Source: Syntrophobacterales bacterium
GTDB taxonomy: Bacteria; Desulfobacterota; Syntrophia; Syntrophales; UBA5619
Direction: 5' to 3'
NCBI GenBank assembly: GCA_019429105.1
Contig: JAHYJE010000033.1
Coordinates: 1-32,663, forward strand
DNA length: 32,663 nucleotides
In this document: one piece after another, positions 52 through 26,374 of the stretch
Numbering within the stretch: the stretch's first letter is position 1
Layout: each line of letters opens with the position of its first letter
The notes under the pieces: model-generated
The model's database searches: none
Seen by the model: the letters and a program-made list of their open reading frames with translations, nothing else
Told to the model about the DNA's origin: nothing
Made by a program: the position numbers and the translations under genes

Positions 52-305
52 TTGTCCTCCTCCAGTCTTAAGCTGTGGCGTTCGATCAACTTTAGAAATT
101 GGCGCATCTGGTATGGTTTCGCTTGCCCTTTCACCTCTTGGAGATTGACAAGCTCCGGAATGTCAGGATGCACGAAAATGTGGTGGCTGCCATCAGTCCG
201 AGAAAGCCGGAACCCGAAGCCTTCCACAAGTTCTATCATATCAGAGAACCGGATATTTTTCGATCCAGCAAGTATCTTCTGCAATATCTTGTATTTTGTC
301 GCCAT
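48..305 (-). CDS. hicA: HicA-type mRNA interferase toxin
   Basis: This is an 85-residue protein of the HicA/YcfA family, a double-stranded-RNA-binding-fold mRNA interferase. The hallmark is the GSHHIF stretch at residues 39-44, where His41 corresponds to the family's catalytic histidine, followed by a PYQMRQFLKLIE helix like the TLRQILK helix of other HicA proteins. I chose the ATG at 305 (MATKYK) because AAGGACGAG lies just upstream; the frame continues to 374, but that would run through attC 324-372. The toxin gene precedes the antitoxin gene, the normal hicAB order. The pair forms its own cassette directly downstream of attC 324-372. It is longer than the 58-residue E. coli HicA mainly at the N-terminus. 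Confidence 0.85.
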   Translation of the reverse strand: MATKYKILQKILAGSKNIRFSDMIELVEGFGFRLSRTDGSHHIFVHPDIPELVNLQEVKGQAKPYQMRQFLKLIERHSLRLEEDK

Positions 306-323
306 ATCACTCGTCCTTTGTTG

Positions 324-372
324 GCATAACATGAAAATCACCGGTTTTATCCGGTGGATTTTATGGTAGGGC
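324..372 (-). repeat. attC site 1 (compact, 49 bp)
   Basis: In the gene-sense (minus) direction it reads GCCCTAC as R'' (372-366), an arm at 362-351, a six-base loop (350-345), the second arm at 344-334 and GTTATGC as R' (330-324). The arms pair over 11 bp with one extra base on the 5' arm, matching the polarity of the other sites. It begins five bases after the HIRAN-gene stop and ends 18 bases before the hicA start. The loop is much shorter than in usual attC sites, so an intrinsic terminator is the main alternative; the matching R' heptamer (the same GTTATGC as in site 6) favours attC. Confidence 0.6.
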
Positions 373-377
373 AATGC

Positions 378-2042
378 CTATTCCTCTCGGCTTTGTCCTC
401 TGTCAAGGAATGACCGCGTTGCTTGCCCGGCTATAAGAAACCTTGAATAGAATCCAGACTTTATTTCTCCTTCCAGGCATTGCTCTATGGTTAGGACGCC
501 ATATTTTCCAAATTTTCTGTTTCCATCTTCGTGTTTATTCCATATATAACGAATAATGGCATTAGAGATTATCTCAGAGTAAATATCTTTTGTTGTCATG
601 TGTTGATTCGGCTCGCCAAACCTTTCAATAAGCCACTTGATGTCAGTTTTTCCCAACGCATTTAGGTTGCTGTAGCCGATTTTCATGTAGTCAATCCCTA
701 TTCCCTCAATTTCGCTGTATGCAACATATTCGCATACTGAATTATTGTAGCCTGAAGGCAATGAATTGCAAAAGTCATCACGAAGAGAAGAGACAATTGC
801 AAGGCCGTATAGCGAATGTAATGTCCCGTCATATATTGCCCCCTCTTTTCTTGCTTGCCTTATAACCTTCCTTAATTCCTTCATGATTATTTGCGACCAG
901 TATAAGCCATTCACAGCCAAAGCGCGAACTTCCTCTCGTTCAAAATCAGCAGGTCTGACAAAAGGCTTCATCCAGCGGCGGGAAAATTCAGAAGATTTCC
1001 TGCGCCTCTTCTCCTCCTGTGTTTCTTCATGAAACCACTTGTCAGGTTTCTGGAGGGCGTCGAGCTTCTTCTTGAAGACGAACATCCATTTTTCCATCTC
1101 ACGAGAGACTTCCTCCTTGCTCGGTTCTATGTAGTCCGTCTGGGCGTTATCAAGCGCCTCATCTTGATCTTCTTCTTTACCCATCTCAGCTTTTGAAAGG
1201 AGTTTGCAAACAATTTTACAGCCACCATCATAAATACTGGCAATACTGGCATCCCATCCGGCAGCAGCCAACAAGTCATCATAGACAGAATCAGGGCAAA
1301 TGCCAATTTGTCCTTTTCCAAAAGGAGTATTCTTTCTGTAAATATAAATTTCCCTGCTATCACCCTTCTGCCAAAGATTAACTTCATCGCCCGCTTTACA
1401 ATTCAATAACTCAAATCTATTAAGCTGATTGACAAGGAATTCTATGGGGTTTGACTGATTTGGGGGAGCCGATATCGCATGCGCACTATTTCTTTCGGGC
1501 AAACTATTTGGAAGGGTTAAATCTATATCGAGCCATACTCCATAAGATCCTGCTTTGTCGAAGTTTCTATCCCATGCAATTTTTGCTGGACAAGTCACTG
1601 CACCGGAAAATCCTTCAGATATCATTTTGCTGCGCCATATAAGTGCTTTTTTTCTACTAAGATGTCCAACGATTTCGCCTTCAATTTCAATTTTGACTGC
1701 ATGAGCGTCATCAGAATTATCGTCATAAGGTATTATTTCGGCCTGCACATGCAACTCAATGCCTTCCTCGCGCCTACCGCCGCAAATCTTTTCCAATGCC
1801 TTCTGGTAGAAAGACACTCCAACAACAATAACCTCGGGGGTATCAAATTCTGAGGGTGTAGCCTCTCTGCTATGTGACAATTTTGCACTGATTTCGGCAA
1901 TCGATTCGTATTCGTCCGTTAAGGATAAGGGTTTGTATTCAGTTGTTAAGCGTTGAGGTTTGGAATCGGCTTGATAATTTTTGATGGAATTACAGTCGGT
2001 ATCTCTTCCAAATAGATCCAGTAATTTTTCAAACAATGTCAT
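378..2042 (-). CDS. HIRAN-domain protein, function unknown
   Basis: This is a 554-residue soluble protein. Residues about 70-175 look like a HIRAN domain: VVGVSFYQKAL at the start, a D-AHAV motif (residues 112-116), then VGHLSRKKA and a VTCPAKI strand. HIRAN domains bind DNA ends or stalled forks in Rad5/HLTF and occur in many bacterial nuclease-linked proteins. Residues about 215-285 form a second beta-rich module containing GKGQIGICP. The C-terminal 270 residues appear helical and charged, and I recognise nothing in them. No helicase or nuclease motif is evident. The gene starts 38 bases after the HNH gene with an AAGGGGTGG ribosome site, so the pair should be cotranscribed. Both lie in one cassette bounded by attC 324-372 and 3000-3058. 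A role in defence or DNA processing is inference from the partner. Confidence 0.6.
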   Translation of the reverse strand: MTLFEKLLDLFGRDTDCNSIKNYQADSKPQRLTTEYKPLSLTDEYESIAEISAKLSHSREATPSEFDTPEVIVVGVSFYQKALEKICGGRREEGIELHVQAEIIPYDDNSDDAHAVKIEIEGEIVGHLSRKKALIWRSKMISEGFSGAVTCPAKIAWDRNFDKAGSYGVWLDIDLTLPNSLPERNSAHAISAPPNQSNPIEFLVNQLNRFELLNCKAGDEVNLWQKGDSREIYIYRKNTPFGKGQIGICPDSVYDDLLAAAGWDASIASIYDGGCKIVCKLLSKAEMGKEEDQDEALDNAQTDYIEPSKEEVSREMEKWMFVFKKKLDALQKPDKWFHEETQEEKRRRKSSEFSRRWMKPFVRPADFEREEVRALAVNGLYWSQIIMKELRKVIRQARKEGAIYDGTLHSLYGLAIVSSLRDDFCNSLPSGYNNSVCEYVAYSEIEGIGIDYMKIGYSNLNALGKTDIKWLIERFGEPNQHMTTKDIYSEIISNAIIRYIWNKHEDGNRKFGKYGVLTIEQCLEGEIKSGFYSRFLIAGQATRSFLDRGQSREE

Positions 2043-2080
2043 TTGCCACCCCTTAGAGTCATCTGAACGGAGGTGATTAT

Positions 2081-2983
2081 CTATGAATAGTCTAATTTCA
2101 TCTGCAATCTTTCAGGCCAACTGCTCAACAACACTTGGGCTTCGAGGGATACTCGCTGCCCTTTCTCCCAAAAGCTTGGCAGAGTATTGTAAATATCATC
2201 CATAGGATTTAAGGACGGAAGAAGAATAGAAAAGCCGTCGAACGAAACCAAAAACATATGTAACGGATTGCGCAAAAACATTACTTTATTCAACGGCATA
2301 CTCTCGTTTCCTTCTATCCAGAATCTCGTACCCAAGATATTGTTTTCCGGTTCTTGAATCTGCCGCCGTACGACTTCCAGGCGTGGGTCAAAAGCGTAGC
2401 GATATCCAAGCCAAGCAAACATCAGCAGAAACGCGGACTTGAGCTGGCTCAATTTGTAGAAGCGGTGATCGTATTTTTGAGTCATTGACAGCTTGAATTC
2501 GAAGCCGTTGACATTGTTGGCGGCGAGATTGCCGAGGTACTCCTTGTACTTCTCGATTGTAGCTGGCTGATTGGCATTAGGAAGCGGCATTACATCAAAA
2601 GAGCGTTCTGTGCAAATGGAGGTTGCTATGCTAAAATCCGCCATTGACAGTGTAGCAAAGGGTATCGTTCCATTTTCTTGACCACACACTACCCTCCAAA
2701 ATTCTTCGAATTTCCTTTTGCTTGCAGTGCTAACATCAATTTTGTGTCCTGCTGATGAATTGCACTGGCGACATGTCTGGAGGATTGGCTTTCCGCCAAC
2801 ACTCTTGGGAGGAACATCCTCCAGTGTGAGATCTGCGCCTGCAATAGCTGAGGATTCAGGATATCCAACCCCGCATATTGGACAATAATACAGTGAAGAA
2901 TCACCGTTTGTATACTTGGCAATCGCTGCCGAGCCGTATTGAAAAATTTTCAACCTTCTTTCTTTGTTAGTCATCTTTGCCAT
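2081..2983 (-). CDS. HNH-type zinc-finger nuclease-like protein
   Basis: This is a 300-residue protein with an N-terminal zinc/HNH-like module. It has CPIC at residues 34-37, then LTLEDVPPKSVGGKP at about 52-66, then TCRQCN at 70-75 and AGHKID to 83. This order (CxxC, E-D/H-VPPKS, CxxCN, AGxxxD) is that of a group of HNH endonucleases in which the first histidine is often EHVPP; here it is Asp56, so catalytic competence is uncertain. The remaining 210 residues are unfamiliar and mixed alpha/beta. The start ATG at 2983 lies 16 bases after attC 3000-3058, so this gene opens its cassette, and the HIRAN-domain gene follows. A pair of HNH and HIRAN-domain genes suggests DNA targeting, but the role is not known. 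Confidence 0.65.
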   Translation of the reverse strand: MAKMTNKERRLKIFQYGSAAIAKYTNGDSSLYYCPICGVGYPESSAIAGADLTLEDVPPKSVGGKPILQTCRQCNSSAGHKIDVSTASKRKFEEFWRVVCGQENGTIPFATLSMADFSIATSICTERSFDVMPLPNANQPATIEKYKEYLGNLAANNVNGFEFKLSMTQKYDHRFYKLSQLKSAFLLMFAWLGYRYAFDPRLEVVRRQIQEPENNILGTRFWIEGNESMPLNKVMFLRNPLHMFLVSFDGFSILLPSLNPMDDIYNTLPSFWEKGQRVSLEAQVLLSSWPERLQMKLDYS

Positions 2984-2999
2984 TATAGGGTTTTCCTGT

Positions 3000-3058
3000 T
3001 CCCAACGACGAGTTCAGCCGCGCCGCGAAGCGGCGCCAGCTGAAACGCGGTGTTAACT
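3000..3058 (-). repeat. attC site 2 (59 bp), end of the katG cassette
   Basis: Gene-sense layout: R'' AGTTAAC (3058-3052), a five-base spacer, an arm GTTTCAGC (3046-3039), a GC-rich inner hairpin (3035-3021, GCCGC stem with a GAA/TTC loop), the second arm GCTGAAC (3018-3012), a five-base spacer and R' GTTGGGA (3006-3000). The 5' arm has one extra T. The central part closely resembles the 59-base element of aadA-type cassettes. It lies between the katG stop and the HNH start. Confidence 0.9.
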
Positions 3059-3109: not shown

Positions 3110-5323
<2,214 letters not shown>

Positions 5324-8538: not shown

Positions 8539-9240
8539 CTAAAGTTGCCATACCCCATGCACCAAGCACAACTTCTTGTTGATTTTTGCAATTGTGACCT
8601 TTGCGTCAGACCTATCCAGCTTTAATGTGAAGTCGGGCGGGTTTTTACCGACAGGAATATTAATCGTTGGGCCATCAGCGGCGAAGTGCTCTCGTCCGAC
8701 ATCCATTATCTGAGAAAAAAGAGAGACGGGAATTTCGACAAGTTCATAGCGATGCAAGGATTGAAAATACCGCAGCTGCACGATGGCATCGACTTCATCG
8801 CAGTACTCTTTAAAAAGGCGACGCGTGTGCTCGCGGCGCTTCGTAGCAGTTCTGCAATCCTGAATCCATGCAGCTTCGGTAAGCTTGCTGATATGGAGTG
8901 TATCCTCGCGAAGGCTTTTCGCTTTCGACGACTTTAGGCTAATCCTTCTTCCATCAACAATTACATCCCAGAACCGTTGTCCGTCAGCTGCTTCCTCCAC
9001 CTTGTGCCCGGTATGCGAACAAGCCGCAATAAAGGCGGAATCGAAGCTTTCCTGAAATAGGGGCGAACCCATAAAACAGTGATGAGTAAGAAGTTTCGAC
9101 CGAAATTCACTCTCGAAAGAATCACTATTGAAAGGAGACTTCGGATTCATTTCCACCTTACAACTCGTTCGCAAAGCATTGATGAACTCTTTGAGCCTTC
9201 GCTCCTCGGCCGCAGTTACGGAAACGGTAAAATTAATCAT
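8539..9240 (-). CDS. type II restriction endonuclease, PD-(D/E)XK-like
   Basis: This is a 233-residue protein, assigned as the endonuclease of the adjacent methyltransferase by position and motif. A candidate catalytic core runs from Glu64 (FQESFDSAF) through Asp92 (FWDVIVDG) to Lys103 in SLKSS, that is D-x(10)-K with Ser in place of the usual acidic residue two before the lysine. I do not recognise the specificity family. It overlaps the methyltransferase end by eight bases (TATGATTAA), so the two are coupled and the methylase is made first. The stop lies about 25 bases from the group II intron tail, which may occupy its downstream attC. No internal break is seen. Confidence 0.7.
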   Translation of the reverse strand: MINFTVSVTAAEERRLKEFINALRTSCKVEMNPKSPFNSDSFESEFRSKLLTHHCFMGSPLFQESFDSAFIAACSHTGHKVEEAADGQRFWDVIVDGRRISLKSSKAKSLREDTLHISKLTEAAWIQDCRTATKRREHTRRLFKEYCDEVDAIVQLRYFQSLHRYELVEIPVSLFSQIMDVGREHFAADGPTINIPVGKNPPDFTLKLDRSDAKVTIAKINKKLCLVHGVWQL

Positions 9241-10432
9241 AGAAAAACTCCTGCTGACCTTTTTTCATTATGTCCGATTGTCTCAGGTTAGTCCCTCGTA
9301 GGATTATATCTTTAATTTGGGGTTGCTTCCCCGTTAGAATCCAGTGAGCTAGATGTGCCAGCTGATAGGAAATCAAGGGAGGTACCGCATCGCCTATGTG
9401 ACGGTACATATTCGATACGGCGGCCCCGTTGAGCGCAAAATCGTTCGGGAACCCTTGCAAAGCCGCCATCTCTCGCACAGAACATAGTCGATCCTTCTCG
9501 GGGTGCGCGTATCGGCCGTTTCCAACATGGGAGCACTCGCGCTTAATTGTGGGAGCGGGTTTGCCCCAAACCATGCGACCGTAAACGTCAGGGTAGGATC
9601 CGAACCGCTTGTGGGCAACGATCCGCTTCATCGCATCAGTCAACAGCTCGTCGGCATCTCTACGCGGTAAGAGATCCATCCATGAGCCGCCATCCTTTGG
9701 AATTGCTGCTATTCTTCGCCGCACTACATCGGACGAGAAATTCGGGTAAAGATCAAAGCCATCGGCATCAGACGCAATCATTTCAAAAGTTCTTTTGACG
9801 GTCAAAGCTTCATCTGCGGCACCCCAGCCATCCCACAGACTGTCTAACGTATGAAGCGGAAGATGCTGCTTGGCGGCGATCACGATTGCCCGCTCACGAA
9901 TTTGTGGTAGTCCGAATCTGGATAGCATGTAAGTCCGGCCAAACACGTTGTATCCGTGGCTCTCCAGATACTCCCGGAACCACTCATAATGGTGCTTGAA
10001 GTTACCTCGAATCAGCTCACGAGCGTTTTCCATGACCACGATATCAACCGATAGGGCAACAGCGAACTGAGCCGATCGACGCACCAAGCTGTTTCGTTTG
10101 TCATCACGAAGATGATTCTCAGGATTGGCTCGACTGAACCCGGTGCATGGCGGGCACGCCGCAAGAACGGTGATATGCTGTTGGTCAGACAAACCAAGCT
10201 TAGAACGCAATTTGTCAGGAGCAATGGCCGTCAAATCCAATCGGGCTGGCATAAAACCAATGTTTTTAAAATAGGTGCTATTGCACTGTAGCCTGCCTTG
10301 CCCGGTGCTCGGCTTCCCCAGTTCAGCATCGGCTGCGGCAATTACCTCGAAAGATGCATGCTTATGGAATCCGTAGCTCATCCCTCCGGCTCCGGAAAAA
10401 AGATCGACAACTGCAAATCGTTCTGGTTCCAT
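9233..10432 (-). CDS. DNA (cytosine-5) methyltransferase
   Basis: This is a 399-residue C5-cytosine methyltransferase using S-adenosylmethionine. Conserved motifs occur in order: motif I LFSGAGGMSYGF (residues 11-22), motif IV PPCTGFS (94-100, catalytic Cys96), motif VI MENAREL (134-140), motif VIII QIRERAIVIA (177-186), and near the end motif IX-like REMAALQGFP and motif X GDAVPPLISYQLA. The variable target-recognition region lies at about residues 210-310; the recognition sequence cannot be read from it. An AAGGAG site precedes the ATG. It is 29 bases downstream of vsr and overlaps the endonuclease gene. It protects host DNA; a linked Vsr implies that deamination of its product is repaired. 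Confidence 0.95.
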   Translation of the reverse strand: MEPERFAVVDLFSGAGGMSYGFHKHASFEVIAAADAELGKPSTGQGRLQCNSTYFKNIGFMPARLDLTAIAPDKLRSKLGLSDQQHITVLAACPPCTGFSRANPENHLRDDKRNSLVRRSAQFAVALSVDIVVMENARELIRGNFKHHYEWFREYLESHGYNVFGRTYMLSRFGLPQIRERAIVIAAKQHLPLHTLDSLWDGWGAADEALTVKRTFEMIASDADGFDLYPNFSSDVVRRRIAAIPKDGGSWMDLLPRRDADELLTDAMKRIVAHKRFGSYPDVYGRMVWGKPAPTIKRECSHVGNGRYAHPEKDRLCSVREMAALQGFPNDFALNGAAVSNMYRHIGDAVPPLISYQLAHLAHWILTGKQPQIKDIILRGTNLRQSDIMKKGQQEFFYD

Positions 10433-10461
10433 CGCTCCTTACCTTATCTACGCTGATTCAT

Positions 10462-10977
10462 TTAGTTCCGGTCGTTATCATACGAGGATATTCGATAACG
10501 TATCTTTTTTTCCGCTACGGATAGCAGCTCATGTTGTTTCATACCACTATCATAACATACTTTGCCTTGGCTAAGCCAATAAGCGACCCGATAAACGGTT
10601 TCAAGCGCTTTTCTGGTCAATTCGCACTCCCATACCACCAAAATCCGCCAGCCAAGGATTTCGAGCTGTCGTATAATTCGACGGTCTCTTTCAACATTTT
10701 CAGTGAATTTTTTCTCCCAGAAATCGACATTGCTCTTGGGCATGCTTGCGTCTTTACATCCTGGATGTCTGTGCCAATAACAACCGTGGACGAACAGGAC
10801 TACATGGAATTTTGGAAAGACGAGATCCGGGCAACCCGGTAGGAGGCTGTTTTTAATACGGTATCTAAACCCGAGTCTATGCAATCCACATCGGAGAATC
10901 CATTCCGGCTTAGTGTCACGGCTGCGCACCTTCGACATCAGTTTAGATCGTTGTTTTTTGCTAACGATATCAGTCAT
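10462..10977 (-). CDS. vsr: very short patch repair endonuclease Vsr
   Basis: This is a 171-residue T:G mismatch nicking endonuclease that repairs deaminated 5-methylcytosine. Catalytic residues fall at the same positions as in E. coli Vsr: Asp51 (PGCPDLVFPK), His64 and His69 (FVHGCYWHRHPGC). His71, Cys74 and the cysteine of WECEL are placed to bind structural zinc. I start at the ATG at 10977 (MTDIVSKKQRSKLMS), the usual opening; the frame extends further upstream without support. It is first in a vsr-methyltransferase-endonuclease operon. The C-terminus is about 15 residues longer than in E. coli. Confidence 0.95.
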   Translation of the reverse strand: MTDIVSKKQRSKLMSKVRSRDTKPEWILRCGLHRLGFRYRIKNSLLPGCPDLVFPKFHVVLFVHGCYWHRHPGCKDASMPKSNVDFWEKKFTENVERDRRIIRQLEILGWRILVVWECELTRKALETVYRVAYWLSQGKVCYDSGMKQHELLSVAEKKIRYRISSYDNDRN

Positions 10978-11218
10978 GGCTCTTTTTGTGCTCGAACAAG
11001 TTATTCTACAGTTTCTGGTGAACTCCTGGACCTGTGGACTGCCTTTATCGATCATCTTGTCGCAGGCCGTGAGGCCGCGCGCCGCCGGATCCCTTTTTTC
11101 AGATTTAACTGTCCTGAAATACATATAAAACCCTTGACGTGGGTTTTGCAATCATTTATTTCTTATTTTCCGTATATCATGTAAAAGTAAAGATTATCAG
11201 GAAGGTGGCGGATTCCAC

Positions 11219-14305: not shown

Positions 14306-14815
14306 ATGGAAATAAGGCGTGAACAATTGGTAATCGATCCCCTCAAATGTACCGGGTGTCAACAATGCTTGCTTGCCTGTTCGATGAAACATCAGGGAAA
14401 TGTAAATTCCCGGTTGGCCTTGCTTAAAATCCTCAGGCTTGAAGTCCAGGAGGTTGACGTCCCTGTCATCTGCATGGCGTGCGATAACGCCCCCTGCATC
14501 AAGGTGTGCCCAATGAATGCGCGGGTGCGACAGGAAAATGGGACGGTTATAACTAACCCGGATGTCTGTATCGGGTGCAGGGCGTGCGTTTATATCTGCC
14601 CGGTCGGCAGCCCGTCGGTAAACCCTTATACGGGGCAGACGATGACCTGCGATATGTGCAAAGACGATGCGGCCGGACCCTGGTGTGTAACCGCCTGTCG
14701 CGAGGGGGCCCTTAAAATCAGCAAAGAGGATGCGCTGACAAAGGGAGTGGTGAGAAAACGGGCGGAGCGCTCAAGAGCCATATATCCAAATAATTTCAGG
14801 ATGAATACAACATGA
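14306..14815 (+). CDS. ferredoxin-type protein with four [4Fe-4S] motifs
   Basis: This is a 169-residue iron-sulfur electron-transfer protein of the HycB/DmsB type. Sixteen cysteines fall in four groups: 15, 18, 21, 25 (CTGCQQCLLAC); 56, 59, 64, 68; 88, 91, 94, 98 (CIGCRACVYIC); and 115, 118, 127, 131. This predicts four cubane clusters. No Tat or Sec signal is seen, so it is cytoplasmic. Its stop overlaps the next gene as ATGA, so it probably forms a complex with that FAD oxidoreductase. The overall role would be to pass electrons between ferredoxin-like carriers and NAD(P)H. The weak ribosome site AAGGCGGAGA abuts the ATG. Confidence 0.92.
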   Translation: MEIRREQLVIDPLKCTGCQQCLLACSMKHQGNVNSRLALLKILRLEVQEVDVPVICMACDNAPCIKVCPMNARVRQENGTVITNPDVCIGCRACVYICPVGSPSVNPYTGQTMTCDMCKDDAAGPWCVTACREGALKISKEDALTKGVVRKRAERSRAIYPNNFRMNTT

Positions 14816-16104
14816 AAACGCAGTTTAATGTTCACAAGGTAGTTATTGTGGGAAACGGGATTGCCGGCAATCGGGTGGCTTCTGAACTGCGGGAAAGGGA
14901 CAAGGAAATCGAGATATGCATCCTTTCCGCCGAGGCTGTTCCGGAATATGATCCCTGCTCGCTTCCCTATTATCTTGCCGGCAATATCGGGAAGAAAGAT
15001 GTTTTCAAAAAAACCGTTGAAGATTACAAGCGGCTTGACATCGATATTATGTTCAATAGCAAGGTTGCTGCCATCAACCCGGAGGCCAAGAATGTCACAA
15101 CCGAAGAGGGCGTGGAAATAGGCTACGACAAACTCGTGCTGGCCCATGGCGGGGCCCTTTTCTTTCCCCCGATTGAGGGGATTCGCAACGAAGGCGTATT
15201 TAGTTGCAAACAGGTGTCGGAAGCGGAAAAGCTCGAAGCTCACAAAGGCAGCAAAGCGGTCGTGATCGGCTCCGGAGCGATCGGGATAGAAGCGGCGGAG
15301 GCATTGAAGAAAAAGGGTTATGAGGTTCACATCATTGAGCTTCTGGGATGGATTCTGCCGGTCCTGTTTGATGAACCCACCGCCAGGATACTCGAAGCGG
15401 CGATGGAGGGGTACGGGATTCATATTCATACCGGGGAAAAGGTTCTCCAGATTAAAGGGGAGGCGAAGGTTGCAAGCGTTGTCACGGACAAACGGGAGAT
15501 CGAATGCGACACGGTTGTAGTTGCAACGGGCGTGGTTCCGGGAACGGCGCTTGCCAAAACCGCGCAGATCGAAACGGGGCGCGGCATCAAGGTCAACAGG
15601 AAGATGGAAACCTCGGTTTCCGATATTTATGCCTGCGGGGACTGTGTCGAAACCTTTGATGCCTGTACCGAAGAGACAGTCATGTTTCAGTTGAAGCATA
15701 ACGCGATTGAGCAGGCGCAAATCGTGGCCAGAAACATCCTGGGAGATGACGTCAAATACCTGGGCGCCTATGCGTTTGCGCGAGTGCATTTTTTTAACAC
15801 CCATGCGTCCACCTTCGGTAAAACCATGCGGGCAACCGCGTGCATGCTGGGGAAATCCGAGCTTATCGAAAAGCAGAGCGGCGGTGATTATTTGCGGATT
15901 GTTTTGCTGGACGGCAAGGTGCTGGGCGGCCAGGCCATCGGCAAGTACGCCGAGGCCATTGGCGCATTTATTGGCGCCATGTGGCGAAAAGACGATTTGG
16001 ACCAATTGAGGGCCAAATGGCGCCAAATTCCGCAAGCAGGCGCCGCTTCCGCGTGGCCTTTGATCCGGCTGGGCCAGCTTATCGGATCATCTGTACAGAA
16101 TTGA
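14812..16104 (+). CDS. FAD-dependent pyridine nucleotide-disulfide oxidoreductase
   Basis: This is a 430-residue class I flavin oxidoreductase related to NADH oxidase and CoA-disulfide reductase. It has an N-terminal FAD Rossmann motif VVIVGNGIAGNRVASELRE (residues 10-28), an internal NAD(P) motif VVIGSGAIGIEAAEAL (about 149-164) and the second FAD motif VSDIYACGDCVE. Cys49 in YDPCSLPYYLAG lines up with the redox-active cysteine of CoA-disulfide reductase/Nox. With the overlapping four-cluster ferredoxin it probably forms an NAD(P)H:iron-sulfur oxidoreductase, useful for moving electrons released or needed in aromatic-ring metabolism. The electron acceptor cannot be told from sequence. Confidence 0.88.
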   Translation: MKTQFNVHKVVIVGNGIAGNRVASELRERDKEIEICILSAEAVPEYDPCSLPYYLAGNIGKKDVFKKTVEDYKRLDIDIMFNSKVAAINPEAKNVTTEEGVEIGYDKLVLAHGGALFFPPIEGIRNEGVFSCKQVSEAEKLEAHKGSKAVVIGSGAIGIEAAEALKKKGYEVHIIELLGWILPVLFDEPTARILEAAMEGYGIHIHTGEKVLQIKGEAKVASVVTDKREIECDTVVVATGVVPGTALAKTAQIETGRGIKVNRKMETSVSDIYACGDCVETFDACTEETVMFQLKHNAIEQAQIVARNILGDDVKYLGAYAFARVHFFNTHASTFGKTMRATACMLGKSELIEKQSGGDYLRIVLLDGKVLGGQAIGKYAEAIGAFIGAMWRKDDLDQLRAKWRQIPQAGAASAWPLIRLGQLIGSSVQN

Positions 16105-16204
16105 TGCTCCATTTCCATAATGACTGTTTATCGGGGATTTATCGTCGGGGAAAAACAGTTGCACTAAATCAGATCAATCAACCTTTGGAAAAGAGGTGCC
16201 ATTT

Positions 16205-16957
16205 ATGAAACTCAAGGACAAGATCGCGCTGGTAACCGGAGGCAGCCGGGGAGTGGGCAGGTCGGTCGCCCTCGCCTACGGGAAGGAGGGGGCCAAGGTT
16301 GTAGTCAACTATACCTCCAATGAAAAGGCGGCCCAGGAGGTTGTGGAGGCCATCGCCGCAATGGGGAGCGAGGCCATTGCCGTTAAAGCGGATGTCGCCT
16401 GCAAGGCCGACGTGGAAAGCCTTTTTGCCGCGGGAATGGAGCGGTTCGGCAGGCTGGATATCCTGGTCAACAATGCGGGATTTACCAGACCCGCCCTGCT
16501 GCTCAAGATGACGGAAGAGCAGTGGGATCAGGTGGTTGACATTCACCTGAAGGGCGCCTTCCTCTGTACCCAAGCCGCCGCCAATCTGATGAAGGGGCAA
16601 AACAGCGGGAAAATCATCAACGTCATGTCGGTTGCCGGCCTGGTGGGAACAGTCGGGCAAATCAACTACAGCGCCGCCAAGGGGGGCGTCCTGAGCATGA
16701 CCAAATCCATTGCCCGGGAACTGGCCCGCTACAACATCTGCGCCAATGTCATCTCCCTCGGCATCGTAGCCACCGACATGTCCGAGAAGATCAGAACGGA
16801 TGAAAAGCTGGCGGAGATCTACATGAACCGGATTTTGCTCAAACGCTTTGCCGAGGCCGGGGATATTGCCCCCGCTTTTGTATTTCTCGCCTCGGACGAC
16901 GCCAATTACATTACCGGTCAGCTCCTCTGCGTCGATGGCGGCTACGGAATGATCTGA
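16205..16957 (+). CDS. short-chain dehydrogenase, FabG-like
   Basis: This is a 250-residue classical SDR. The NAD(P) motif is TGGSRGVG (residues 11-18), NNAG follows at 89-92, and the catalytic Ser142, Tyr155 and Lys159 are present. The usual catalytic asparagine before LKG is His114, a variant seen in many SDRs. It ends with DGGYGMI, as FabG-type enzymes do. I use the ATG at 16205 because AAGAGG lies eight bases upstream; a GTG at 16196 is in frame but overlaps this site. Lying before had, oah and dch, it is a candidate 3-hydroxypimelyl-CoA dehydrogenase (the step after ring opening), but general 3-oxoacyl reductase activity is equally possible. Confidence 0.88.
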   Translation: MKLKDKIALVTGGSRGVGRSVALAYGKEGAKVVVNYTSNEKAAQEVVEAIAAMGSEAIAVKADVACKADVESLFAAGMERFGRLDILVNNAGFTRPALLLKMTEEQWDQVVDIHLKGAFLCTQAAANLMKGQNSGKIINVMSVAGLVGTVGQINYSAAKGGVLSMTKSIARELARYNICANVISLGIVATDMSEKIRTDEKLAEIYMNRILLKRFAEAGDIAPAFVFLASDDANYITGQLLCVDGGYGMI

Positions 16958-16983
16958 GATGTTTTCCCTGGCATGTTAATAAA

Positions 16984-17017
16984 CTTGTCAAGGCAAGATG
17001 GACCATTATGGCCATAA
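16984..17017 (+). promoter_or_regulatory. palindromes upstream of the had gene
   Basis: A 12-base perfect palindrome TTATGGCCATAA (17006-17017) and CTTG-T-CAAG (16984-16992) lie 30-65 bases before the dehydrogenase start. TTGTCA with TATGGC at 16-base spacing is a weak promoter candidate. This may be a regulator site for the had-oah genes; no regulator gene is adjacent. Confidence 0.3.
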
Positions 17018-17048
17018 ATGACTTGATAAAAAACATAAGGAGGAGAAA

Positions 17049-18155
17049 ATGGCAGGATTACCCGATAAGATAAAGACATGGCAAATGGTTCAGCCGACTG
17101 TCTTCAACCGGGAGACTAAGGAAACCACGCCTGGAAAACTGCAAAAAACAGAGATTCCAGTGCCAGATTTGAAGCCCGGGGAGGTGTTGGTAGAGGTAGC
17201 CGGCTGCGGGGTGTGTCACACGGACTTGGGGTATTTTTATGACGGCGTTCCGACTGTCTCCAAACCGCCGTTAACCTTGGGGCATGAGATCTCGGGGACA
17301 GTGGTTGCCGGGGATGCCAAATGGATCGGGAAAGAGGTTATCATTCCAGCGGTTATGCCGTGTCGTCAGTGCTACCTCTGCAAAACGGGGAGGGGGAACC
17401 GGTGCCTGGATCAGAAGATGCCCGGAAACAGCATCGGCCTGTATGGAGGTTTTTCCAGCCATATCCCGGTCCCCAGCGTTGATCTGTGCGAAGTAAAAAA
17501 CCGGGGCAACATTCCGTTGTCCCATCTTGCCGTTGTCGCCGATGCCGCCACCACGCCCTATCAGGCCGCCAAAAGGGCCGACCTGCAGCCGGGCGACAAT
17601 GTGATAGTGCTTGGCATTACCGGGGGAGTAGGACAGTATATGGGGCAGGTCGCCAAGGCCCTGGGCGCCAAGACGGTCATCGGCATCGCCCGCAATCAGG
17701 AAAAACTCGATAAGGCGCTGAAATTCGGAGCGGATTTTGTCATCAACACAACGGGCAAGGACACAGGCGCAGTGGTCAAAGAGTACCGGGGACTCTGCAA
17801 GGCAAACGGTCTTCCCAATACCGGCTGGAAGATATTCGAGGTGACGGGTTCCAAGGCGGGCCAGGAAATCGCGCTGGCCCTCTTGAGCTTTACCGGGAAA
17901 TTGCTGGTAGTGGGATACGGCGTAAGCTCGGTGGAATACAACATCAGCCGGCTTATGGCCTTTGACGCAGAGATTATTGGGACCTGGGGATGTCTCCCCG
18001 AGTATTACCCGATTGTTCTGGACATGGTGCTGAGCGGAAAGGTCAATCTCGAGGAGTTCGTCGAGACGCGCCCGATGAGCACAATCGAGCAGACCTTTGC
18101 CGAGAACCATAAGACGCCGCCGATGAAACGGATTGTACTGATCCCCGATTTCTGA
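17049..18155 (+). CDS. bamQ: 6-hydroxycyclohex-1-ene-1-carbonyl-CoA dehydrogenase (Had, BamQ)
   Basis: This is a 368-residue zinc-dependent medium-chain alcohol dehydrogenase that oxidises 6-hydroxycyclohex-1-ene-1-carbonyl-CoA to the 6-oxo compound with NAD in the benzoyl-CoA pathway. Catalytic zinc ligands include Cys56 (GVCHTD) and His79-Glu80 (GHE). Structural zinc cysteines are 105, 108, 111 and 119. The NAD motif is VLGITGGVGQYMG near residue 193. The MPGNSIGLYGGFSSHIPVP stretch (124-142) is characteristic of Had enzymes rather than general alcohol dehydrogenases. A GGAGGAG ribosome site precedes the ATG. It is immediately upstream of its pathway partner oah. Confidence 0.93.
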   Translation: MAGLPDKIKTWQMVQPTVFNRETKETTPGKLQKTEIPVPDLKPGEVLVEVAGCGVCHTDLGYFYDGVPTVSKPPLTLGHEISGTVVAGDAKWIGKEVIIPAVMPCRQCYLCKTGRGNRCLDQKMPGNSIGLYGGFSSHIPVPSVDLCEVKNRGNIPLSHLAVVADAATTPYQAAKRADLQPGDNVIVLGITGGVGQYMGQVAKALGAKTVIGIARNQEKLDKALKFGADFVINTTGKDTGAVVKEYRGLCKANGLPNTGWKIFEVTGSKAGQEIALALLSFTGKLLVVGYGVSSVEYNISRLMAFDAEIIGTWGCLPEYYPIVLDMVLSGKVNLEEFVETRPMSTIEQTFAENHKTPPMKRIVLIPDF

Positions 18156-18228
18156 AAGCGGCTGGGACGGGCTTTCGCGAACAAGGACTGAAGAGAGACG
18201 ATAAATTCAAACAACAAGGAGAGACGCT

Positions 18229-19371
18229 ATGACATTAAAGGGTTTGGAATGGCTGCCGCGGGAAGACGGCATCAAGGATCACGCGTTGCATACGGACAAG
18301 CATTGGGGAACGGAAGCGCCCTGTACGGTCTATGAGAAAAGGCCCCTTACCGATCCCACGGGGAAGGTCGTCGATGGCCTCTTTACCGCGTGGATTCGCC
18401 TCAACAACCCCAAACAGTTCAATTCCTACACGACAGAAATGGTCAAAGGGGTGATTGCCGGTTTTGAAAACGCGTCGTTAGACAGAAGCGTTGTGGCTGT
18501 GGTCTTCACGGGCACGGGCCCCTACGCGTTTTGCACCGGCGGCAACACCAAGGAGTACAGCGAGTATTACAGCATGAGGTCCGACGAGTACGGGCAGTAC
18601 ATGGAACTCTTCAACCACATGGTTGATTCCATCCTCTTCTGCAAAAAGCCGGTTATCTGCCGGGTGAACGGCATGCGGGTGGCCGGTGGTCAGGAGATTG
18701 GCATGGCGTGCGACCTTGCCGTATCCTCGGATCTGGCGATCTACGGTCAGGCGGGTCCGCGACATGGTTCCGCCCCGGTCGGCGGCGCCTCGGACTTTCT
18801 GCCCTGGTACCTCGGCATCGAAGACGCCATGTGGAACTGCGTCTCCTGTGAGATGTGGTCGGCCTACAAGATGAAGGCGAAGAATCTGATCAGCAAGATT
18901 GTTCCCGTACTGAAGGTGGATGGGAAATGGGTGCGCAATCCCCAGGTCATCACGGATGTTTACGTGCAGGACGGCGAGATCGTTTACGGCGAAAACAAAA
19001 CCGGCGAAGAAGCCAAGGCTGCCCGTGAATTTGTCAAACTGCATCAGCCCAATGCCGATTTCGAACTCCTCGACAAGGAGGTTGACAAGATGGTCTGGAC
19101 GTTCGCCAATTTGTTCCCCGGTTGCCTGATGGAGTCGATTGACAGCGTCCGCCAGAAGAAGAAATTCTTCTGGGATACCATGAAAAATGCCCATCGCCAC
19201 TGGCTGGCTGCCAACATGGGCGGCGAGGCCTTCCTCGGCTTCGGGGCCTTCAACTCGAAGAAGATCACCGGCAAGGACACTATTGATTTCATCAAGTTCC
19301 GTCAGAATATCGTCGAAGGCAAGGCCTGGGATATGGAGATGTTCTCGGGAGTTCTGGGGAAACCTCTTTAA
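18229..19371 (+). CDS. bamA: 6-oxocyclohex-1-ene-1-carbonyl-CoA hydrolase (Oah, BamA)
   Basis: This is a 380-residue crotonase-family ring-opening hydrolase that converts 6-oxocyclohex-1-ene-1-carbonyl-CoA to 3-hydroxypimelyl-CoA by hydration and C-C cleavage. It is the established marker gene for anaerobic aromatic degradation through benzoyl-CoA. Recognisable segments are the N-terminal WLPREDGIKDHALHTDKHWG, the oxyanion-hole region FCTGGNTKEYSEYYSMRSDEY, GMRVAGGQEIGMACDLAVS and AGPRHGSAPVGGASDFLPW. Its length is normal for BamA. The ribosome site AAGGAGAG lies seven bases before the ATG. A strong terminator follows it at 19404-19450. Confidence 0.97.
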   Translation: MTLKGLEWLPREDGIKDHALHTDKHWGTEAPCTVYEKRPLTDPTGKVVDGLFTAWIRLNNPKQFNSYTTEMVKGVIAGFENASLDRSVVAVVFTGTGPYAFCTGGNTKEYSEYYSMRSDEYGQYMELFNHMVDSILFCKKPVICRVNGMRVAGGQEIGMACDLAVSSDLAIYGQAGPRHGSAPVGGASDFLPWYLGIEDAMWNCVSCEMWSAYKMKAKNLISKIVPVLKVDGKWVRNPQVITDVYVQDGEIVYGENKTGEEAKAAREFVKLHQPNADFELLDKEVDKMVWTFANLFPGCLMESIDSVRQKKKFFWDTMKNAHRHWLAANMGGEAFLGFGAFNSKKITGKDTIDFIKFRQNIVEGKAWDMEMFSGVLGKPL

Positions 19372-19403
19372 CAGGGGTTTTTAAAGACGCACTATGGCTA
19401 GCG

Positions 19404-19450
19404 AAGAGGCAGGCATGTTCCCGAAAAAGAGACCTGCCTGCCTCTTTTTT
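19404..19450 (+). terminator. intrinsic terminator after oah
   Basis: Twelve-base perfect arms AAGAGGCAGGCA (19404-19415) and TGCCTGCCTCTT (19435-19446), a 19-base loop, then a T-run continuing to 19450. This is a standard rho-independent terminator. It sits between oah and dch, 25 bases before the dch ATG, so it separates or attenuates dch expression. Confidence 0.85.
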
Positions 19451-19475
19451 ATGTAAAAAAAGGAGCTAAAATACC

Positions 19476-20243
19476 ATGAGTTATGAGCATATTGAAGCGG
19501 CAATGCAGGATGGCCTGGGAACCATAACCCTCAACCGTCCGCCGGTGAACGTCCTGAACATCGCCATGATGAAGGAGATCAATGGGGTGCTGGACGCATG
19601 GAGAGGCCAGAAGGATTTGAAGGCAGTTCTGTTCCAGGCAAAAGGCAAATGCTTTTCCGCCGGCGTGGATGTAGGGGAACACATGGGCGATCTGGCGCCG
19701 AAGATGATCGACGCCTTTCACGGCATGTTCCGCCGGATGGAGAAAATTGACGTTCCAACCGTGGCCTCGGTTTACGGCTCCTGTCTGGGAGGCGGTTGCG
19801 AGCTCGCCATCTTCTGTGATCTGGTCATCGCTGCGGATGATGCCAAGTTCGGCCAGCCGGAGATCCAGGTCGGGGTCTTTCCCCCGATTGCCGCCCAGAT
19901 CATGCCGCGCATCATCGGGCAGAAGGCAGCGATGGAGCTGATCCTTTCCGGGAAAACCATCTCGGCCGGGGAGGCCAGGGAACTGGGGTTGATCAACCAG
20001 GTGGTGGGGCGAGACGAGCTGGAAACGGCCACCGCGGCCTTTTTGAAGCCCTACCTGAGGCTGAGCGCCGAGGTGCTCCGCTTGACAAAAAAGGCGGTTA
20101 AAGCAGGGCTTATGGACCCGCTGGAACCATCTTTGCAAACCATCGAAGCTATCTATCTGCAGGAACTCCTGAAGACAACGGATGCCCAGGAGGGCCTTGT
20201 CGCCTTTCTCGAAAAGAGAAAACCGCAGTGGCGCAATGAATAA
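19476..20243 (+). CDS. bamR: cyclohexa-1,5-diene-1-carbonyl-CoA hydratase (Dch, BamR)
   Basis: This is a 255-residue crotonase-fold enoyl-CoA hydratase. In the benzoyl-CoA pathway Dch adds water to the cyclic dienoyl-CoA made by benzoyl-CoA reductase, giving the substrate of Had. Family features are TLNRPPVNVLNIAMM at the start, the oxyanion segments FSAGVDVGEH and YGSCLGGGCELAIF, and the FGQPEIQVGVFPPIAA stretch that resembles Dch enzymes. The assignment over generic hydratases rests on this similarity and on linkage to had and oah. It follows a terminator with only 25 bases in between; AAGGAG lies about ten bases before the ATG. Confidence 0.9.
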   Translation: MSYEHIEAAMQDGLGTITLNRPPVNVLNIAMMKEINGVLDAWRGQKDLKAVLFQAKGKCFSAGVDVGEHMGDLAPKMIDAFHGMFRRMEKIDVPTVASVYGSCLGGGCELAIFCDLVIAADDAKFGQPEIQVGVFPPIAAQIMPRIIGQKAAMELILSGKTISAGEARELGLINQVVGRDELETATAAFLKPYLRLSAEVLRLTKKAVKAGLMDPLEPSLQTIEAIYLQELLKTTDAQEGLVAFLEKRKPQWRNE

Positions 20244-20743: not shown

Positions 20744-20947
20744 ATGGACAGGGAATCACGGAAAAAGCAGGTCGCCCACTGCCTTGTCGATATGGGCCAA
20801 ACGATCACCTCCTGGGCCGCCAAGAACGGTCTGCACCACAAGATCGTCTCCGACCTGATCGACGGCAAGCTGAAGGGAACCCGAGGCGTCGCCCTGGAAA
20901 CCCGTCGTGCAATGGAAAAAACGTTCGGTCCCATCTTCGACGAATAG
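20744..20947 (+). CDS. small HTH DNA-binding regulator (BcepMu gp16-like)
   Basis: This is a 67-residue basic protein with a single helix-turn-helix: ITSWAAKNGLHHKIVSDLIDG (residues about 20-40), then KLKGTRGVALETRRAMEKTFG. The pattern (short helix, WA--NG----V---L-G, then a TRG loop) resembles the phage-associated BcepMu gp16 family and Cro-like repressors. A GGGAG site precedes the ATG. It is the first gene after the palindromic promoter and ends 28 bases before hsdM, so it probably controls the restriction-modification operon in the manner of C proteins. That control function is inference. Confidence 0.75.
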   Translation: MDRESRKKQVAHCLVDMGQTITSWAAKNGLHHKIVSDLIDGKLKGTRGVALETRRAMEKTFGPIFDE

Positions 20948-20975
20948 ACGAATAGGAGATCACCCCAAGGATCCT

Positions 20976-23192
20976 ATGAATACCCAACAGATCGAAAAAG
21001 AACTCTGGGAGGCGGCCGATCAGCTCCGGGCCAATTCCAAACTCACCGCCGCCGAGTACTCCATGCCCGTCCTGGGGCTGATATTTCTGCGCCACGCCGA
21101 CAATCGCTTCAAACAATTCGTGGATGAGATCGAGAAGTCCATCCCGCCCCAGGTGCCGGCGGCCCAGCGGGAAGGGTTGATCAAGCTGGAGTTTCAGGGC
21201 AAGGCCGCCATGTATCTGCCGCAAGAGGCCCGCTACGACTATCTGGCCGATCTGCCCAAGGGCAAGAATGTCGGCAAGGCCATCGACGATGCCATGGACC
21301 TGATAGAGAACGAGTATGAAGTCCTCAAGGGCGCTCTGCCGCGGGGCTATTCGGCTTTTGAACCGGATCTCCTGGCGGAAATCGTCAAGATCTTCAACCG
21401 CGACGCCCTGAAGAAGGCCAGCGGCGACGTCTTCGGCCGCATCTACGAATACTTCCTCAACAAGTTTGCCCAGAGCGGCGCTCAGGAGGGCGGCGAATTC
21501 TTCACGCCCCCGTCCCTGGTCCGGATGATCGTCAATGTGATCGAGCCGGATCACGGCATCATCCTCGATCCGGCGGTCGGCTCGGCCGGCATGTTCGTGC
21601 AGACCGGCCACTTCATCGAGGATGTGCGCCGCCAGAACCCCAACGACAAGGCGACCTTCTTCGGGCAGGAAAAATCCGAAACCAACACAAAGCTGGCCCG
21701 CATGAACCTGGCCGTTCACGGCCTGGACGGAAAGATCATTCAGGGCAACACCTTTTATGATGATCACCACACCTTGTTGGGCCGCTGCGACTACGTCATG
21801 GCCAATCCCCCCTTCAACGTCGATTCGGTGGACACCAAGAAGGTGGAGGCCCATGTGGGAGAAGGGGACCGCCTGCCTTTCGGTTTGCCCGGCATCAACG
21901 CCAAGACCGGGGCGATCTCCAATGCCAACAGCCTTTGGATCCAGTTCTTCTATTCCTATCTCAACGACACCGGCAGGACCGGGTTCGTCATGGCCTCCTC
22001 GGCGTCCGATGCAGGCAACAAGGACAAGGAGATCCGCCGGAAGCTGGTGGAGTCCGGCCACGTGGACGCGATGATCGCCATCGGCCCCAAGTTCTTCTAC
22101 ACCCGCGGCCTCCCCTGCACCCTCTGGTTCTTCGATAAGGGGAAAGGTTCTATGCCCCGGCAGAAAGAGGTCACGGGCGCGCCCGCTTGGAACGATAGCG
22201 ATCATGTGCTGATGATCGACGCCCGCAACGTCTACCATGCAGTTTCGGCCCGGTCCCACGTCTTTACGGAAGAGCAGTTGGCCAACCTGACCGCCATTAC
22301 CTGGCTCTACCGGGGGGAGCAGGCAAAGTTCGTCGCCTTGGTCGCCTCTTACCAGCGGCGGGTGGATGAATGGCTGGCGGAACTGCCGGTCCGCCTCGCC
22401 GCAGATGGAGAAAAGGCACAGGAAGTGGCCAGCCTGCTGACCACCTTTTCCGACCAGGTGGTTCTCGCGGCACTGAATAAGGACGTTCCGGAAGAGGAAC
22501 AAATCACGCAGATGCAGTTGACGGCTTTCAAGGGTGAGTTGCAGGCCGCAGGGGAGCAGACCGCCGCTATAGACCGGCAGATCGCTGCCCTGTTAGCGCA
22601 GGCGGCAGCCGCTAGGGGAAAGATCGCCGCTGCCGACCGGTCTTCCCATGCCGGCCAAAAGGCCCTTCAGACAGAACTGGATGCCTTTTTGCCCCTGTTG
22701 AAAGAGGCGCAGAAGGAAGTGGAGGCCCGCCACAAGCTCTGGCTGAAACTCCTGGACAGGGCGGAAAAAACCCTGTCGGCTCGCAAGTCGGATGCCTACG
22801 ACAACAAACGCGGCCGGGAGATAAAGCGGGCGCTGACGGCAGCGGACGAGAAGAAGGAAGAAGAACCGACTATCCGTGATCTAGTACTGGAAGGCCTCAA
22901 ACAGGCAGCCTACTTCATCGCTCAGGTGAACAAGCTTCACAAGCGCTTCCCCGAGGCCGTTTATGCCGATGTCCCGGGTCTCTGCAATGTGGTTTCCCGA
23001 GCTGACATTGCAGCTAGCGACTATAGCCTCACGCCAGGCCGGTACGTCGGCGTGGCGGTATTGGCGGAGGATGACGAGGAGGACTTCCAGGAACGGCTGA
23101 CCCAGATTCATACAGAGCTGGAAGAGTTGAACGAAAAGACGGTGCTGCTGGCTGAGCGTATAAAGGAAAACTTCGCGGAGTTGATGGTATGA
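20976..23192 (+). CDS. hsdM: type I restriction-modification methyltransferase subunit HsdM
   Basis: This is a 738-residue N6-adenine methyltransferase. Residues about 5-160 are the HsdM N-terminal helical domain. Motif I is DPAVGSAGMF (198-207) and motif IV is NPPF (277-280). The C-terminal SDYSLTPGRYVGV segment and helix typical of HsdM are present. It is about 200 residues longer than usual because a long, Ala/Glu/Gln-rich, coiled-coil-like segment lies at about residues 440-640. I start at the ATG at 20976 (MNTQQIEKELWEAADQLR) with AAGGAT six bases upstream. It overlaps hsdS by ATGA. With HsdS it forms the modification enzyme, and with HsdR the full restriction complex. Confidence 0.96.
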   Translation: MNTQQIEKELWEAADQLRANSKLTAAEYSMPVLGLIFLRHADNRFKQFVDEIEKSIPPQVPAAQREGLIKLEFQGKAAMYLPQEARYDYLADLPKGKNVGKAIDDAMDLIENEYEVLKGALPRGYSAFEPDLLAEIVKIFNRDALKKASGDVFGRIYEYFLNKFAQSGAQEGGEFFTPPSLVRMIVNVIEPDHGIILDPAVGSAGMFVQTGHFIEDVRRQNPNDKATFFGQEKSETNTKLARMNLAVHGLDGKIIQGNTFYDDHHTLLGRCDYVMANPPFNVDSVDTKKVEAHVGEGDRLPFGLPGINAKTGAISNANSLWIQFFYSYLNDTGRTGFVMASSASDAGNKDKEIRRKLVESGHVDAMIAIGPKFFYTRGLPCTLWFFDKGKGSMPRQKEVTGAPAWNDSDHVLMIDARNVYHAVSARSHVFTEEQLANLTAITWLYRGEQAKFVALVASYQRRVDEWLAELPVRLAADGEKAQEVASLLTTFSDQVVLAALNKDVPEEEQITQMQLTAFKGELQAAGEQTAAIDRQIAALLAQAAAARGKIAAADRSSHAGQKALQTELDAFLPLLKEAQKEVEARHKLWLKLLDRAEKTLSARKSDAYDNKRGREIKRALTAADEKKEEEPTIRDLVLEGLKQAAYFIAQVNKLHKRFPEAVYADVPGLCNVVSRADIAASDYSLTPGRYVGVAVLAEDDEEDFQERLTQIHTELEELNEKTVLLAERIKENFAELMV

Positions 23193-24457
23193 GTGAGTCC
23201 TGGGGAAAAATTGCTTTTGAGCAAGCTCCTCTCCAAATTATAGATGGGGATCGAGGTACCAAATATCCGCAAAAAGACGATTTCACGGATTCAGGTTACT
23301 GCGTATTCTTGAATACCAGCAATGTATTAAGTGATGGATTCAATTTGTTTCAATGCCAATTCATTTCTGAGTCGAAAGACCAAGAGCTAAGGAAAGGACG
23401 CTTGTGCAGGGGTGACGTTGTTCTCACAACCCGGGGTACAATAGGGAACATAGGTATATATGATGAGAGCGTGCCCTATGACCATATCAGGATTAATTCC
23501 GGGATGGTGATCCTCCGTACAGACAAGGGAAAGCTTTTGCCGGCATTCCTGTTCCAGTTCTTGCGATCGTCGTTCTTCAGGGAACAAGTAGATTCATTGA
23601 GGAGTGGTGCGGCCCAACCCCAGCTTCCAATTCGAGATATCAAACGCGTTCTTATTCCATTTCCTGATGTTCCGATTCAAACTTGCATTGTGTCGGTGCT
23701 CTCCGCCTACGACGACCTCATCACAGCCAACCAACGCCGCATCCAACTGCTGGAGGAGTCGGCCCGGCTGCTGTATCGCGAATGGTTCGTGAAGCTGTGC
23801 TTCCCTGGGCACGAGACCGTGCCGATCAGTGATGGCGTCCCCGGGGGATGGGCACGCAAGCCCGTTTCAGCACTGGTCGATGTTAATCCAAGGACTCCAT
23901 TTCCCAGAGATGTGGCAAGACCTTTCGTAAGGATGGAGGTCCTTGCCGAAGACTCGATGGTTATAGATGCCTCCTCTGATGCCCGACCTATAAGCGGGGG
24001 AGCAAAATTCCGAAATGGTGATACCCTATTGGCGAGGATTACGCCATGTCTTGAAAACGGAAAGACCGGTTTTGTTCAGTTTCTTGAAGATGATGAGGCC
24101 GTCGCCAGTGGTTCAACGGAGTTTATTGTGCTCCGGTCCCGCACGGTCAATCCCTACTATGTCTATTGCCTTGCACGTAGCGATTCTTTCCGTGAACATG
24201 CGATTAACAGCATGGCGGGATCCGATGGACGGCAACGGGTCAACACAAAATGTTTCCAGCAATACTTGACATTACAACCGCCTGATGATGTGTCGCAGCA
24301 TTTCGAAGACAAAGTGAGAGATATGTTCGAACAGGTACAGTCTCTGACGAACTACAATCAGGCATTACGTGAGGCTCGCGACCTGCTCCTCCCCAAGCTG
24401 ATGTCCGGAGCGCTGGACGTGAGCCGCATCACTGTTCCCCAGGAGGTCGCCGCATGA
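23189..24457 (+). CDS. hsdS: type I restriction-modification specificity subunit HsdS
   Basis: This is a 422-residue specificity subunit with two target-recognition domains: the first at about residues 1-150 and the second at about 205-370. The conserved helical spacers are YDDLITANQRRIQLLEESARL (central) and NQALREARDLLLPKLMSGALDVS (C-terminal). Both recognition domains are plainly richer in A and T than the conserved spacers and flanking genes, a sign of domain exchange. It overlaps hsdM by ATGA at its start and the next gene by ATGA at its end. The recognised bipartite sequence cannot be predicted by eye. Confidence 0.95.
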   Translation: MSESWGKIAFEQAPLQIIDGDRGTKYPQKDDFTDSGYCVFLNTSNVLSDGFNLFQCQFISESKDQELRKGRLCRGDVVLTTRGTIGNIGIYDESVPYDHIRINSGMVILRTDKGKLLPAFLFQFLRSSFFREQVDSLRSGAAQPQLPIRDIKRVLIPFPDVPIQTCIVSVLSAYDDLITANQRRIQLLEESARLLYREWFVKLCFPGHETVPISDGVPGGWARKPVSALVDVNPRTPFPRDVARPFVRMEVLAEDSMVIDASSDARPISGGAKFRNGDTLLARITPCLENGKTGFVQFLEDDEAVASGSTEFIVLRSRTVNPYYVYCLARSDSFREHAINSMAGSDGRQRVNTKCFQQYLTLQPPDDVSQHFEDKVRDMFEQVQSLTNYNQALREARDLLLPKLMSGALDVSRITVPQEVAA

Positions 24458-26091: not shown

Positions 26092-26374
26092 TTTTGGCTC
26101 ACTTGGGGCCCTATCTGCCCAAGATGAGCCAAAAAAACGAGCCAAAAGGTGCCTGCTGAATTGGAAGTAAGCTGAAATCGTTTCCTTTTTATTTGGCTCA
26201 TGATCGCCATATTGACTGAACTCTATTGGCTCAAACGCTCCATATCCGCCAAGGGCGGTCAATAGGAGGGACGATAGCTTTTCTTAACCATCTGAATCTG
26301 AGCAGTTTTTCTATTGACCTTGTGGGGCTGTGTCTTTTCGGTCCGGGCTATAGACGAGCCAAAGTGGAGGTGGG
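26092..26374. promoter_or_regulatory. hsdR upstream region with six TTGGCTC-type motifs
   Basis: Six copies of a (T)TTGGCTCA-like motif occur in 283 bases, three on each strand: plus at 26092-26101, 26191-26200 and 26225-26233; minus at 26125-26134, 26138-26147 and 26356-26363. The first two form a long hairpin: TTTTGGCTCACTTGGG pairs with its complement up to 26134 with one bulged A. A second nested hairpin has CTATTG (26224) pairing with CAATAG (26260) around CCGCC/GGCGG. No consensus promoter for hsdR stands out. An earlier protein-coding remnant is not evident. Confidence 0.65.

Follow-up and report, generated by a model that had tools for sequence, protein, structure and literature searches.

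HIRAN domains are common near defence genes in bacteria. The described systems closest to the locus presented here are the HNH_5 (PF14279) endonucleases, the HIRAN proteins of the HLTF/Rad5 type (PF08797), the HipL/HipN modules, the Hachiman systems with a HIRAN domain in HamB, and the type IV or modification-dependent HNH enzymes (SRA-HNH, GmrSD). The HIRAN domain of HLTF binds the 3'-OH ends of single-stranded DNA, and this binding is disrupted by N90A-N91A (PMC11237066). Phage-defence cassettes are known to be stored in chromosomal integrons (review PMC12409362). In the window, the whole stretch of 32,663 nucleotides that was analysed, a gene for an HNH-type protein (gene 1) lies next to a gene for a tandem-HIRAN protein (gene 2). 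No paper describing this pair was found in the open-licence literature searched.

The product of gene 1 shares with the HNH_5 endonucleases the bba-metal core, the CxxC...CxxC arrangement and the E..(H)VPP..GG..N motif, but it matched the Pfam HNH_5 profile (E 2.4e-5, 24.6 bits) below the curated cut-off of 27.5, it has a long conserved C-terminal region, and in over half of its family Asp stands at the position of the usual catalytic His. The product of gene 2 resembles the HLTF/Rad5-type proteins in its fold and in the N..D..A motif of its first HIRAN domain (HIRAN-1), but the domain is in tandem, the second copy (HIRAN-2) is without the motif, there is no helicase, and an extra domain is present at the C-terminus. 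The HipL/HipN modules are also bacterial systems with HIRAN as the proposed DNA sensor, but neither a kinase nor a HipS part was found in the window pair, where the partner is an HNH protein. Hachiman with HIRAN in HamB likewise combines a HIRAN-bearing protein with a nuclease, and a gene of the gene 1 family lies beside such a system in Embleya, but the window pair has neither a helicase nor HamA/DUF1837 (Pfam, PADLOC) and is not classed as Hachiman. The type IV and modification-dependent enzymes couple HNH cutting to a DNA-reading domain, whereas the reader in the window is a HIRAN domain in a separate protein, and SRA, NTPase and DUF262 were not found by Pfam. PADLOC gave 0 matches for the proteins of genes 1 and 2, Rfam gave no match, and NCBIfam gave nothing useful.

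Gene 1 (2983-2081, 300 aa) and gene 2 (2042-378, 554 aa) are both encoded on the minus strand. The ORF calls bore out the spacing given in the earlier note, with 38 bases between the two co-directional reading frames. The depth of the families behind both genes shows that neither is a chance open reading frame. The gap (2043-2080, minus strand) contains a AGGGGTGG-type ribosome site ahead of the start of the HIRAN gene, and it has no attC, as had been noted: its folding was no better than that of shuffled sequence (z -0.3). Upstream of the pair, an attC-like site (3000-3058, minus strand; AGTTAAC...GTTGGGA, with one additional unpaired base in its stem) was also seen in the attC scan, and its single-strand fold (z -3.36) was equalled by 0 of 200 shuffles. 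Downstream, between the HIRAN gene and the HicA-like gene (hicA) that follows it, there is a hairpin at about 305-377 (minus strand). Although it folded with z -3.06, the scan detected no R''/R' core pair in it; it is non-canonical as attC and may be a terminator or a decayed attC site. Of the claim that attC sites lie on both outer sides, the upstream half therefore stood, with a canonical-looking site, while the downstream side has a hairpin without canonical core sites. With no canonical attC after gene 2, the pair can be called only a candidate for moving as one unit. The window begins at the first base of its contig (C33), so the left side of the locus is cut off. The locus is a degraded integron-like gene array.

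The CxxC...VPPKS...CxxCN module is present in gene 1 (2081-2983, minus strand). Its Cys4 zinc site consists of C34, C37, C71 and C74, and it carries E55-D56...N75...D83. The AlphaFold model (pLDDT 80.5) has strands at residues 52-57 and 65-71 and a helix at residues 72-99, which is the bba-metal fold of HNH endonucleases. Its best structural matches, as ranked among Foldseek candidates rescored by VIA, were Cas9 HNH domains, with a modest Z of about 5 over residues 1-86. Foldseek itself returned no significant match for the model in PDB and BFVD. A phmmer match to a sugar isomerase was taken as chance.

Relatives of gene 1 were found at 17 loci from 84,980 species genomes, in Deltaproteobacteria, Bacteroidota, Actinomycetota and others, while scans of viral contigs with raw proteins and with the HNH profile gave no relatives. 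The relative from Embleya passes the HNH_5 cut-off at 31.4 bits. Residues C34, P35, E55, V57, P58, P59, G63, G64, N75, G79, L186, G193 and P256 are invariant in the alignment of 20 sequences and D83 is near-invariant; a Sphingobacteriales group has lost three of the four zinc-site cysteines. Gene 1 belongs to an undescribed family of about 300 aa with an N-terminal HNH-type fold. Position 56, where the general-base His of HNH enzymes is expected, is Asp in gene 1, and Asp and His have exchanged there at least three times on the family tree. With Asp in place of the general base, cutting may be weak or absent. The substitution does not prove loss of cutting, because PacI has Tyr at that position (PMC4081073). 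The product of gene 1 is a probable DNA-cutting protein, and a family with an Asp/His swap at this position tests how far HNH chemistry varies.

By tblastn, the product of gene 2 (378-2042, minus strand) consists of three pieces, each of which also occurs separately. HIRAN-1 (1518-1829, minus strand; residues 72-175) keeps N109..D112..A115, corresponding to HLTF N91 and D94, and a motif search found the N..D motif of the 3'-OH DNA-end site in HIRAN-1 and not in HIRAN-2. The full protein had no direct Pfam match. The HIRAN-1 profile matched human HLTF HIRAN structures (E 2.5e-4), two bacterial relatives of HIRAN-1 matched Pfam HIRAN (PF08797) just under the cut-off, and pLDDT was mostly above 90 at residues 80-150 in the AlphaFold model. 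The HIRAN-like fold on which the earlier note had rested its reading of residues 70-175 is therefore predicted there. Small proteins of both phages and bacteria match HIRAN-1, with 70 viral loci among them.

The second beta-rich module had been left unnamed, and structure matching identified it as HIRAN-like. The model of residues 190-283 matched HLTF HIRAN X-ray chains with Z 8.0-8.4 and lp_0118 with Z 10.2, and its order of strands and helices in the AlphaFold model is the same as in HIRAN-1. These matches make residues 195-283 (1194-1460, minus strand), as modelled, a second, motif-less HIRAN-like domain. The HIRAN-2 region recurs in an exonuclease fusion and in a small standalone protein. 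In the scans of viral contigs, the HIRAN-2 profile and the C-terminal domain gave no relatives, and only HIRAN-1 gave some; one viral-contig protein (L056) carries both HIRAN-1 and HIRAN-2, in tandem. On that contig (L056:351-6017), an EcoRI-type methylase, a GmrSD_N-HNH gene and the tandem-HIRAN protein are encoded. The C-terminus, previously described as large, helical and unknown, is a helical domain (495-1043, minus strand; profile match at about residues 334-516), with a poor AlphaFold model. The label unknown does not hold throughout: the domain is mobile in its own right, and IncC/IncU plasmids as well as rhizobial plasmids carry standalone relatives. In two rhizobia (L003:4000-5465 and L044:2006-3465), standalone genes for this domain overlap the end of SRAP genes.

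Sedentary arrays had been described in the earlier note as rich in defence cassettes, and the window carries restriction genes of both types, II and I. A SmaI-like REase, a C5 MTase and Vsr are encoded in a row at 8539-11151. At 20907-29602 there is a type I RM locus, consisting of M, S and R, in which a gene for Schlafen/AlbA_2 plus RecG-C separates S from R. A 6-oxocyclohexenecarbonyl-CoA hydrolase-like gene and dehydrogenases are located at 14306-20243 and suggest that the host may be an anaerobic aromatic-acid degrader. Among 247 genomes of the phylum, Pfam detected HIRAN in 17, and at least 5 of these 17 HIRAN genes have a neighbour with Cas3-type domains. The HIRAN genes of the phylum (L125-L141) are often beside WYL regulators. 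A second HIRAN protein of 765 aa is encoded in the same genome as the window (contig C18, L138:931-3228), beside a gene that is Vsr-like by eye.

The two kinds of gene are found together elsewhere. An HNH-HIRAN pair is also present in a genome (G249) of the same phylum and a different class, where the HNH protein is 80% identical to the gene 1 product. The order there is reversed, with a 337-aa HIRAN protein (PF08797, E 7.7e-7) first and the HNH gene second. This HIRAN protein, which matches the PADLOC PDC-M03B models, has no detectable similarity to the gene 2 product and is not homologous to it outside the HIRAN domain. The G249 pair sits between two strong attC sites, about 1.4 kb from an integron-integrase remnant. 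The DNA of the HNH genes of the window and G249 is 82% identical over 922 bp, and the homology begins at the attC core CGTTGG, 24-26 bases ahead of the HNH start codon. Conservation of this leader (2984-3007, minus strand, in the window) was better than in 5000 of 5000 shuffles. A leftover attC-like core is present at the HIRAN/HNH joint of G249. We infer that the HNH gene was a cassette of its own that was joined to a HIRAN gene separately in the two genomes; it seems to have been an independent cassette originally and to have acquired a HIRAN neighbour on at least two occasions, downstream of it in the window and upstream in G249. A possible ORF of 30 codons (L015:9206-9293) lies between the HIRAN and HNH genes of G249, with stop/start codon overlaps on both sides.

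A third, looser association was found in Embleya (Actinomycetota), where a remote HNH relative, about 25% identical, is situated 1.5 kb downstream of the HamA and HamB genes of a Hachiman system, and HamB ends in a HIRAN domain that was found with the HIRAN profile. The Embleya plasmid (L147:3608-10435) carries HamA and the HIRAN-bearing HamB, then ORFs that by eye resemble a NACHT-type remnant, and then the HNH-family gene. A HIRAN neighbour was absent from the sequence around the other 20 HNH-family loci searched, partial loci included. There is no conserved operon, since the HIRAN partners are not orthologous. Under uniform chance, with the HIRAN frequency taken from Pfam, HNH-HIRAN adjacency would have a probability of roughly 4e-5 to 2e-4, which is an underestimate in practice, as genes of the defence type are clustered.

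A closely similar HNH gene is joined to another HIRAN gene in the G249 integron, so the two proteins probably act together on foreign or broken DNA. Tentatively, and with slightly less than even confidence, we favour a two-component module in which the HNH protein is brought to DNA ends or forks by the HIRAN protein, most likely for defence. The earlier note had proposed joint action on foreign or damaged DNA. For such a module we counted the HNH fold with invariant E55, N75 and G79, both HIRAN folds, the joining in G249, the rarity of HIRAN, the HIRAN-bearing HamB of the Embleya Hachiman system, the Cas3-type neighbours, the defence-rich surroundings with their restriction genes, the GmrSD_N-HNH gene of the viral contig and the 3'-OH end binding of HLTF HIRAN; against it we counted the 20 HNH loci without HIRAN, the non-orthologous partners, Asp56, the core at the G249 joint and the lack of a PADLOC model.

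The main rival, which we regard as quite possible, is that two unrelated single-gene cassettes came to lie side by side by chance; the HNH protein would be a nuclease or DNA-binding factor that works by itself, with the HIRAN protein as separate cargo. With an attC-like core persisting at the G249 joint, the two genes may be no more than adjacent cassettes, and the homology of the HNH genes stops exactly at the attC core, as in a one-gene cassette. Most members of the HNH family stand alone, cassette arrays juxtapose genes freely, and the downstream attC of the window pair is non-canonical. However, two arrays have HIRAN joined to the HNH gene, by different joints and with distinct HIRAN proteins, and a third member of the family has a HIRAN helicase nearby, while HIRAN is rare.

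In the two-component module that we favour, the HIRAN protein would recognise DNA ends or forks, and HIRAN-1 keeps the motif predicted to bind 3'-OH ends. HIRAN-2 probably has a structural role or mediates contacts between proteins, and the C-terminal domain may have a coupling or regulatory function. The HNH protein, brought by the HIRAN protein in a putative complex, would then nick or cut the DNA. The natural role would most likely be defence against phage or plasmid DNA, like that of the surrounding restriction genes. A two-gene system of an end sensor and a nuclease would make the role of bacterial HIRAN near defence genes directly testable. More doubtful is a wider reading, in which the HNH family, with interchangeable Asp and His, would be paired repeatedly with different HIRAN sensors of DNA ends, be they tandem HIRAN, HIRAN with a helical repeat or a HIRAN helicase, and would travel in integron cassettes as an undescribed modular defence class.

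It is improbable that the pair is a module for DNA repair or replication forks, with HIRAN binding stalled forks or ends and the HNH protein trimming or resolving structures after damage. The HIRAN proteins that have been studied act in repair and at forks (PMC11237066), and SRAP, the abasic-site protein, is encoded by the genes that the C-terminal-domain genes overlap in the rhizobia, but the patchy, mobile distribution and the defence-rich surroundings argue against it. Even less probable is a toxin-antitoxin-like or abortive pair, modelled on the proposal for HIRAN antitoxins of HipA kinases, in which the HIRAN protein would hold a toxic HNH nuclease until foreign DNA ends are sensed: HIRAN domains are found in predicted HipN antitoxins (PMC8262856), the G249 HIRAN protein has its PDC-M03B matches and hicA adjoins the pair, but many HNH relatives have no HIRAN partner able to neutralise them and the HipS-like part was not found.

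In the window, katG (3110-5305) is followed by the attC-like site at 3000-3058 that lies upstream of the pair. In another genome (G468, L121:10553-13006), a katG 77.6% identical to that of the window is likewise followed by an attC-like hairpin, and an HNH-family gene, 31% identical and broken by an IS, lies 2.2 kb beyond this hairpin. The katG gene may travel as a cassette.
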